DNA of 34,953 nucleotides from Gemmatimonadota bacterium. GTDB lineage: Bacteria; Gemmatimonadota; Gemmatimonadetes; Gemmatimonadales; GWC2-71-9. Shown in pieces: positions 23,733 through 27,024 of this stretch (positions are counted from its first letter, which is position 1; each line of letters opens with the position of its first letter). Below the pieces are notes generated by a model, which was not told the origin of the DNA, did not search any database, and was given only the letters and a program-made list of their open reading frames with translations. The DNA is taken from the NCBI GenBank assembly GCA_024641745.1, contig JAHECL010000012.1, positions 1-34,953 of the forward strand, read 5' to 3'. Both the position numbers and the translations under genes were made by a program.

Positions 23733-24842
23733 CTAGTCCACCAGGCGCAGCGGCATCACCAGCGTCATGTAGCTGGCCGGGTCGTCCCAGCCGACCGGCT
23801 CGCAGGTGGCGGCCCGCTCCGGGGCCTTGAAGGTCATCCGCACCTCGTCGGTCGGGATGAACTTCAGGATTTCCAGCAGGTAGGTGGCGTTGAACCCGAT
23901 CTCGAGCGGCTCCCCCTCGTAGGTGACCGTCAGTTCGTCCTGGGCCTCCCCGAGGTCGGGGGTCTGGACCGAGAGCTTGCAGCCGCCGCTGGAGAACGCC
24001 ATCCGGATGCGGTGGGTCTGGTCGCTGGCGACGGTGCTCATCCGCCGCAGGGCGGCGGCCAGGGCCGCCTTGTCGGCGGTGGCCACCTTGTCGTTTTCCC
24101 GAGGGATGACCTGCTCGTAGTTCGGGTACGGCCCCTCGATGAGGCGGCTGTAGACCTGGGTCGTCGCGGAACGGAAGCCGAGGTGGTTGTCGCTCCGGGC
24201 CATTTCCACGGTGTCGTCGGCGCCGAAGAGCCGACGGATCTGGTCGAGCGCCTTGGGCGGCACGATGAGGTCGGCCTGGGTCTTCCCGCCGGACACCGGG
24301 ACGTCCATCCGGGCCAGGCGATGCCCGTTGGTGGCCACCATCCGCATCTTGTCGGGCCGAAGTTCCCAGAGCACGCCGTTCAGGATCGGCCGGCTCTCCT
24401 CGGTGCTTGCCGCGAACGCCACGTGCCCGATGAGCTTGTGCAGTTCCCTGGCCGCCACCGTCCAGCCACCGTCGAAGCTGACGGTCGGGAAGGCGGGAAA
24501 CTCTTCCCGCGGCAGCCCGAGCAGCTTGAACTTCGATTTACCGCACTCCAGGGTCACCCGCTGTTCGCCGGACGCCGTGAACCGGATGCTGGCACTCGGC
24601 AGTTCCCGGACGATCTCCACCAGCTTCCTGGCCGGAAGGGTGATCGCCCCTTCCTGGTCGACACTGGCTGCCACGGTCGTGCTGACCGCGATGTCGAGGT
24701 CGGTGCCGGAGATCCGGAGCCCGTCCTTGGTCGCCTCGAGCAGGATGTTGGCCAGGACCGGCAGGGTGGTCTTGGCGGGCACGCTCGCCGCCACGGCCAC
24801 CAGGCCTTCCTGGAACTGTTCTCGCGTGATCGTGAACTTCAT
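23733..24842 (-). CDS. dnaN: DNA polymerase III beta subunit (sliding clamp)
   Basis: 369 aa, normal length. The clamp is a dimer of three-domain subunits encircling DNA and holding Pol III and other partners. Family features: MKFTITREQFQEGL start, VPAKTTLPVLANILLEA and DGLRISGTDLDIAV in domain 1, LVEIVRELPSASIRF, FPAFPTV, HVAFAASTEESRPILNGVLW in domain 2, and the C-terminal YMTLVMPLRLVD that forms the partner-binding pocket (usual form M-P-M-R-L). It lies downstream of dnaA on the same strand, separated by the 250-bp origin core. recF and gyrB, which often follow dnaN, are absent here. Confidence 0.97.
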   Translation of the reverse strand: MKFTITREQFQEGLVAVAASVPAKTTLPVLANILLEATKDGLRISGTDLDIAVSTTVAASVDQEGAITLPARKLVEIVRELPSASIRFTASGEQRVTLECGKSKFKLLGLPREEFPAFPTVSFDGGWTVAARELHKLIGHVAFAASTEESRPILNGVLWELRPDKMRMVATNGHRLARMDVPVSGGKTQADLIVPPKALDQIRRLFGADDTVEMARSDNHLGFRSATTQVYSRLIEGPYPNYEQVIPRENDKVATADKAALAAALRRMSTVASDQTHRIRMAFSSGGCKLSVQTPDLGEAQDELTVTYEGEPLEIGFNATYLLEILKFIPTDEVRMTFKAPERAATCEPVGWDDPASYMTLVMPLRLVD

Positions 24843-24894
24843 GCCATCCCCGACGTACAGGTGGTCCAGCGTCCAGGTCCTTCGGAGTGCAAGT

Positions 24895-24960
24895 AGTACA
24901 AGTACTTCTATTGATATATAAGACTAGTAGTAGTAGTAGAGGGTGTGGGGATGTGGATGA
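24895..24960 (-). other. oriC: Replication origin core (oriC): DnaA boxes, DnaA-trios and AT-rich unwinding site
   Basis: Read on the minus strand, from dnaA toward dnaN: DnaA box TCATCCACA (24960-24952, 8/9 to TTATCCACA), a weaker box ATCCCCACA (24952-24944, 6/9), a CCCT stretch, then CTA repeated five times (24939-24925), then CTTATATATCAATAG (24922-24908). On the opposite strand the repeats read 3'-GAT-5' five times, the DnaA-trio consensus that DnaA uses to open the duplex, followed by the AT-rich part that melts. Order and polarity match the Bacillus subtilis basal unwinding system. At the far end, AGTACAAGTACT (24895-24906) is a small interrupted palindrome. The rest of the gap to 25092 has only weak CCACA cores (25017-25025, 25061-25069, 25071-25079). 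Confidence 0.85.
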
Positions 24961-25092
24961 CATCGCCAACCCACCGCACCGCAACATCCTTGCTCACGTC
25001 GGCGCTGTCGGAACCGTGTGGAGCATCTGGAAAGACCCGCCGATTCCACGCGCCAACGTTGATTCCACATCTGCCCACATTCGCCGCGCCGA

Positions 25093-26478
25093 CTATTGTG
25101 CGAACAACTCCTGCCGTGCCAGCTCAACTCGCTCGCGGAACGCACGATCGCGCGCCATCTGGCGCTCCACCTTGTCCACACTGTGAATCACGGTGCTGTG
25201 GTCGCGACCACCGAACGCCTGCCCGATTTCCACCAGCTGCATCTGCAGGACTTCCCGCGCCAGGTACATCGCGATCTGCCGCGGCACCGTCAGGGTCTGG
25301 ATGCGCGCCTTGGAGCGCAGGCCCTCGGGAGTGACGCCCCACCGTCGTGACACAATTTCCTGGACCCGGTCCACCGACGGCATGGCGCGGGGTGTCACGC
25401 TGGCCGCCTCCTCGCTGGCCTTGATCTTGTCGGCCAGGGACTCGCGCGCCAGTTCGATGGTGATCTCGCGGTGCTTCAGCGACGCGAAGAGCAGCAGCTT
25501 GATGATACAGCCCTCGAGCTCCCGCACGTTCGACCGCACATGCTCGGCGATGAACCGGAGGACATCGTCCGGGATCGTCATCTCGAGGTGGTCCTGCTCC
25601 TGCTTCTTCTGCAGGATGGCGATCCGGTGTTCGAGGTCGGGGAGCCCGCTGTCGGCCACCATCCCCCACTCGAAGCGGCTGACCAGCCGGGCCTCGAGGC
25701 CCGGGAGCTCCTTGGGCGGCCGGTCGGAGGTCACCACGATCTGCTTCCCCGCCTCGTAGAGGGCGTTGAAGGTGTGGAAGAACTCCTCCTGCGTCCGCTC
25801 CTTGCCCTCCAGGAAGTGGACGTCGTCCACCAGGAGGAGGTCCACGTCGACCCGATACCGGCGCTTGAGCTCCGGGGTAGTGCGGCTGTGGATGCTCTCG
25901 ATGACCTCGTTGATGAACTGCTCGGCGCCGACGAAGAGGACCCGGGTGCTGGGGTCCCGCTCGACGACCGCGTGGGCGATGGCCTGCATCAGGTGGGTCT
26001 TGCCCAGCCCGGTGGCCCCGTAGATGAAGAGCGGGTTGTAGGTCTTGCCCGGCGCCTCGGCGACCGCGTGGGCGGCGGCGGCGGCCAGCTCGTTCGACTT
26101 CCCGATGACGAAGGTGTCGAAGGTGTAGCGCTCGTTGAGCGGCTGGGTGTTGCGAATGGCCGCCGCCGCCTCGGGCGCGGAGGCCGGCGGCGCCACGAAG
26201 AAGTCCATCTGCGGGCGCTGTTGCCGCTCTTCCTGGACCCGGAAGACGATCCGGGTGGCATGCCCCAGCAGCGGCTCGGCCAGTCGGGCGAGGACGCCGG
26301 CGTGCTTGGTCTCGTTCCACTCGACGGCAAACTGGTCCGGGGCGCCAATGACCAGATCGGATCCTTCCAGCGCTATCGCCGTCGTCGGCTCCAGCCAGGT
26401 GCGGATCGCATGTTCTGGAAGCTCGCGGTGTGCATCTTCGAGGATGCGTTTCCAGGCTTCTTTGGCGGACAGCGGCAT
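25093..26478 (-). CDS. dnaA: Chromosomal replication initiator DnaA
   Basis: 461 aa. Domain I (about 1-80) begins AKEAWKRILEDAHRELPEHAI; a short linker follows; the AAA+ domain III starts at LNERYTFDTFVIGKSNELA. Walker A GATGLGKTHL (154-163), Walker B DLLLVDDVHF (213-222), sensor 1 IVVTSDRPPKELPGLE, and the arginine-finger segment RLVSRFEWG are intact. Domain IV has LYLxxE-like AMYLAREVLQMQLVEIG and the DNA-binding signature GGRDHSTVIHSVDKVE, which reads the DnaA box. ATP-DnaA assembles on the boxes and trios described beside it. It is divergent from rpmH. The promoter upstream carries a DnaA box, which points to self-repression. Confidence 0.98.
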   Translation of the reverse strand: MPLSAKEAWKRILEDAHRELPEHAIRTWLEPTTAIALEGSDLVIGAPDQFAVEWNETKHAGVLARLAEPLLGHATRIVFRVQEERQQRPQMDFFVAPPASAPEAAAAIRNTQPLNERYTFDTFVIGKSNELAAAAAHAVAEAPGKTYNPLFIYGATGLGKTHLMQAIAHAVVERDPSTRVLFVGAEQFINEVIESIHSRTTPELKRRYRVDVDLLLVDDVHFLEGKERTQEEFFHTFNALYEAGKQIVVTSDRPPKELPGLEARLVSRFEWGMVADSGLPDLEHRIAILQKKQEQDHLEMTIPDDVLRFIAEHVRSNVRELEGCIIKLLLFASLKHREITIELARESLADKIKASEEAASVTPRAMPSVDRVQEIVSRRWGVTPEGLRSKARIQTLTVPRQIAMYLAREVLQMQLVEIGQAFGGRDHSTVIHSVDKVERQMARDRAFRERVELARQELFAQ

Positions 26479-26862: not shown

Positions 26863-27024
26863 ATGAAGCCCACGTATCGGCCGCGGAACAAGCGGCGTAT
26901 CAGCAAGCATGGCTTCCGCGCCCGGATGGCGACCCGCTGGGGTCGCGCGGTGCTGTCCCGCCGTCGGAAGAAGGGTCGGAAGTCGCTGGCCGTCAGCCTT
27001 CCGTCGAAGCACGGGGGCTCCTGA
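26863..27024 (+). CDS. rpmH: Ribosomal protein bL34
   Basis: 53 aa, very basic, somewhat longer than the usual 44-47 residues of bL34 because of a short tail (SLPSKHGGS). The family pattern is complete: [20 protein letters not shown], then [19 protein letters not shown]. Start ATG 26863 has AGGA 7 nt upstream. It is part of the large ribosomal subunit. The order rpmH-rnpA-yidD-yidC-mnmE is the conserved bacterial cluster beside oriC. The rnpA reading frame remains open through the whole gene. Confidence 0.97.

Follow-up and report, generated by a model that had tools for sequence, protein, structure and literature searches.

A probable DNA-melting origin core between dnaA and dnaN in Gemmatimonadota and a conserved sequence element beyond its AT-rich run

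The dnaA-dnaN gap and its surroundings

The window, which is the whole 34,953-nucleotide stretch of DNA that was analyzed, carries dnaA (25093..26478, minus strand, 461 aa; TIGR00362, 507 bits; aligned to 8btg chain A) and dnaN (23733..24842, minus strand, 369 aa; TIGR00663, 325 bits), separated by a gap of 250 bp. rpmH (26863-27024), rnpA, yidD, yidC and mnmE are located beside dnaA in divergent orientation and form a classical origin neighbourhood with dnaA-dnaN; rpmH, rnpA and yidD were named by eye from their translations. The nearest named records were Gemmatimonadetes metagenome assemblies, the closest being JAKLGU010000034.1 with a DnaA 96% identical to that of the window, in agreement with the phylum proposed in the preliminary description of this DNA. 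With the window's own genome (94% complete) in 228 contigs, GC skew was sampled in 20-kb stretches of three relatives. An inflection of the skew at this site had been named as a check on the origin, and it was observed in two of the three. The skew of a complete genome from the same order flipped at dnaA, with a mean of +0.019 after the gene and -0.027 before it (p = 0.0006), and a flip at dnaA was also found on a 1.55-Mb contig of a genome of the same family (p = 0.02), but no usable skew was found in the sampled stretches of the third relative (G021).

The elements of the gap were read directly on the minus strand, where they follow each other 5' to 3' from position 24960. DnaA box 1, TCATCCACA (24952..24960), has one mismatch to the consensus TTATCCACA, and a TCCACA-like sequence is present at the same position in relatives. 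DnaA box 2, ATCCCCACA (24944..24952), begins 8 nt after box 1 and is degenerate, with a TCC(A/C) position that is conserved in relatives. The two boxes had been described as abutting; the pair is present, but base 24952 is common to both, giving an overlap of 1 nt. The boxes are followed by the GC-rich spacer CCCT (24940..24943), which is 4 nt long in most relatives too, and by five exact CTA repeats (24925..24939), corresponding to 3'-GAT-5' DnaA-trios of the plus strand. The last element is the AT-rich DNA unwinding element GTCTTATATATCAATAG (24908..24924), which is T/A-rich in relatives as well. Spacer, error-free repeats and AT-rich run are thus as first described. Two upstream low-affinity box-like sites, each with 2 mismatches, were found at 25017..25025 on the minus strand (TGCTCCACA) and, in the opposite orientation, at 25061..25069 on the plus strand (GATTCCACA).

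A search for the box core followed by 12 nt and (CTA)5 gave one match in the window at up to 3 mismatches and none in 100 shuffles, and the 15-mer CTACTACTACTACTA has a single copy in the genome of 2,674,934 bases, at the dnaA-dnaN gap. Because of the single match, the empty shuffles and the genome-wide uniqueness, the core is not a product of chance. The rule used by Pelliciari et al. (2021, PMC8287927) to search for elements of the basal unwinding system (BUS) across bacteria consists of a box with at most 2 mismatches, a spacer of at most 16 nt and at least 3 NAN trios. The core of the window falls within this rule, with 12 nt between the better box and its five GAT trios, and it has a tandem second box in addition. 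Alignment to the B. subtilis BUS structure 8btg showed that the DnaA of the window has counterparts of I190, K222 and the arginine finger R264 of B. subtilis.

The gap element was assigned, with a probability of about 0.9, as the DNA-melting core (BUS) of a Gemmatimonadota chromosome origin. This is the origin-core reading of the preliminary description, with polarity, order and place as in B. subtilis, and the spacing, uniqueness and conservation of the element agree with it. By analogy with B. subtilis and other species, DnaA would bind both boxes as duplex DNA and so seed an oligomer. Further DnaA-ATP would lengthen the oligomer along the 3'-GAT-5' trios of the plus strand, and the oligomer on the trios would open the adjacent AT-rich element.

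Conservation of the core in the phylum

Conservation was examined directly in 148 dnaA-dnaN gaps, 98 from close relatives (near-duplicates removed, window included) and 50 from other families; DnaA identities across the compared families reach down to about 40-50%. The trios were kept, as the preliminary description had expected of relatives: at least three of the first four trios read CTN in 129/148 gaps. Trio letter frequencies over the 148 gaps were 0.91 for C, 0.91 for T and 0.87 for A, with G as the main variant at the third position. These values lean somewhat towards the motif, since the anchors of distant loci favoured box-plus-CTN, 14 of them having been placed manually. The box pair and the 4-nt spacer were retained in most of the gaps.

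A perfect five-fold CTA repeat could come from slippage, and the repeats might then be a microsatellite that arose by chance and has no function. This explanation is refuted by the conservation, with practically no probability left to it: the position, spacing and phase of the trios are alike in most of the 148 gaps, and the 15-mer is unique in the genome. In four distant Gemmatimonadota (L181, L182, L187 and L141), runs such as CTATGATGATG replace the CTA repeats at the same place after the boxes. These runs are possibly deviant DnaA-trios of the kind suspected in PMC8287927.

Two further observations were made on dnaA and its homologues. A contig filed under a Thermoanaerobaculaceae assembly, JALOLB010000374.1 (L076), carries a dnaA 76% identical to that of the window, and the same assembly has a second, different dnaA (L192); the contig is probably a misbinned Gemmatimonadota contig. 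A protein of 660 aa in which DnaA-type AAA+ domains stand in tandem (two matches to PF00308) and the DnaA DNA-binding domain is missing was found in most of the 61 genomes searched; in the window's own genome it is encoded on the minus strand at L057:1789-3771 (G000:C155:4288-6270). Its gene adjoins those of an Arf/MglA-like small GTPase and a DUF4388-TPR protein. The protein may be a DnaA-like regulator that the phylum has conserved.

The preliminary description had also presented the core as a mechanism kept far from Firmicutes. The core is indeed conserved in the phylum, but the implied surprise is not supported, as BUS-type origins have already been reported domain-wide. PMC8287927 gives a predicted BUS, of the kind described in B. 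subtilis, for 1,755 (85%) of the 2,070 bacterial origins considered, so that the presence of the core in Gemmatimonadota is not surprising; the phylum is not named in the main text. The core alone is of limited news because the reach of the mechanism beyond Firmicutes is already established, and it adds one more cleanly documented phylum for a mechanism already thought ancestral.

The right-hand element past the AT-rich run

A conserved right-hand half, on the dnaN side of the AT-rich run, was found in addition to what had first been described. In the window's family, CT[AGT]CT was present on the opposite strand in 59/76 loci against 21.4±3.4 expected from dinucleotide shuffles, a statistic that, like the other shuffle comparisons below, retains shared ancestry and so shows conservation and not independent origins. 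The same-strand control was near chance (13 against 9.7). Start positions of the inverted trios peaked 29-36 nt after the trio start, and after thinning to segments less than 70% similar, the inverted trios were still seen in 19/27 loci (6.8±2.1 expected). The commonest motif on the dnaN side in an unsupervised search of the same family was ACTACT[A/G]CT, recovered from the opposite strand of 96% of loci, and this motif varies at the third trio position, like the left trios. Loci of this family also have a same-strand box 45-46 nt past the start of the trios, close to where the sister families described below have theirs.

In 80% of loci from the sister families of the class, the motif recovered by the unsupervised search was an opposite-strand DnaA box, T[T][T/A]TCCAC[A/G]. 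An opposite-strand box 46-55 nt past the trio start was present in 29/49 loci (1.1±1.1 expected). The inverted-trio signal of these families was modest, with a score of 5.07 against 4.47±0.23 (2/500 shuffles), and box, spacer and trios could be read by eye on the right side, e.g. in L147, L152 and L183. For most lineages the right half falls short of a complete mirror BUS: loci of the window's family combine trios with a box that faces away, and those of the sister families combine the opposite-strand box with the modest trio signal.

The window's own right half is weak. Its inverted run GTACTTCTA (24902..24910, plus strand), which corresponds to the family motif and points back at the AT-rich element, is trio-like but weaker. 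At the family position of the right-hand box the window has the degenerate ACTTGCACT (24886..24894, minus strand), and no DnaA box was found there at 2 mismatches.

At the level of sequence, the family-wide signals show that a right-hand element exists in Gemmatimonadota. Since inverted trios or an opposite-strand box lie on the dnaN side, the AT-rich element is bracketed by signals that resemble DnaA targets. A literature search of openly readable main texts found no report of trios on both strands or of trios in Gemmatimonadota, and the conserved right-hand element appears to be unreported as far as searchable papers show. The core is thus a known kind of element, and its right-hand partner appears to be previously undescribed in this phylum.

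An outgroup, the phylum of G310, gave 11 trio-like pattern matches, some of them probably inside genes and one with inverted trios, in a small sample reached via a contig that itself looks misbinned. Judged from these matches, the right half does not look general beyond Gemmatimonadota. In the dnaA-dnaN gap of L201, from the same phylum, arms of the CTACTACTAG and CTAGTAGTC type are separated by about 30 nt, with TTATCCACA located upstream of them, and the gap is reminiscent of the two-sided layout.

Possible functions and comparison with known systems

Left trios and inverted trios form an inverted repeat, CTACTA being complementary to TAGTAG about 20 nt away, and the repeat could be kept as a DNA or RNA hairpin. 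This is disfavoured as very improbable, since neither covariation nor a fold signal was found: left-hand CTG variants are not accompanied by right-hand CAG (Fisher p = 1), and the strand of the window folds no better than its shuffles (z -0.45).

The preferred explanation for the right-hand element is that of a candidate DnaA site on the second strand for the second helicase. A second DnaA site could engage the minus strand and help to hold the bubble or to place a second helicase. That the element holds or loads the second strand is put forward tentatively, at a little below even odds. DnaD (PF07261) was detected in none of 21 Gemmatimonadota genomes, with B. subtilis and L. lactis detected as controls, and DciA (PF05258) was detected in 20 of the 21. 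In such two-sided origins DnaA might capture both strands, position two DciA-dependent helicases and replace the strand-marking role of DnaD in Bacillus, a proposal which is possible but rather doubtful as a whole.

A serious rival holds that the right-hand signals do not form a second unwinding site, and that DnaA bound there regulates transcription of dnaN, or that the signals anchor a loop and increase the DnaA concentration locally. The element is located just upstream of dnaN, and the distal DnaA box of B. subtilis, which acts by looping whichever way it is oriented (PMC6669920), fits the flip of orientation between lineages. Loop anchors, however, accept many positions and the right-hand element is fixed to within a few bases; a regulatory or looping role also leaves unexplained the inverted trios with their trio-like variation at the third position. 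No sigma-70-like promoter was found in the gap of the window by a scan that is blind to other promoter types. A regulatory or loop-anchor role is conceivable and is likewise put below even odds. The preferred second-strand reading bears on a question raised in PMC10201434, whether further oriC elements direct helicase loading on opposite strands. A second-strand DnaA signal in a phylum with DciA and apparently without DnaD would make two-strand helicase loading testable.

The BUS of B. subtilis (DnaA-boxes 6/7 and DnaA-trios, incC) and the core of the window are alike in their box pair, 4-nt GC-rich spacer, CTA-type trios and AT-rich element, as well as in their location between dnaA and dnaN and their polarity. 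The B. subtilis boxes are 8 nt apart, as in the window. In contrast to the B. subtilis BUS (trio string in PMC10201434 and PMC10316083), both boxes of the window deviate from the consensus, the trios are perfectly regular, and Gemmatimonadota relatives have an additional element, of inverted trios or a box, beyond the AT-rich run. The rule of PMC8287927 seeks one unwinding module per origin, and the passages covered make no mention of a second half facing the first.

The DnaD recognition element (DRE) of B. subtilis is strand-specific, is read by DnaD and has been proposed to act in the loading of the second helicase (PMC10201434). The DRE and the right-hand element are both strand-specific signals, but the DRE is complementary to the trios, whereas the Gemmatimonadota candidate is a separate site beyond the AT-rich run and resembles a DnaA target. 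E. coli oriC also has DnaA sites in opposite orientations. In E. coli, however, both arrays are on one side of the unwinding element, whereas the sites in Gemmatimonadota bracket the AT-rich element.
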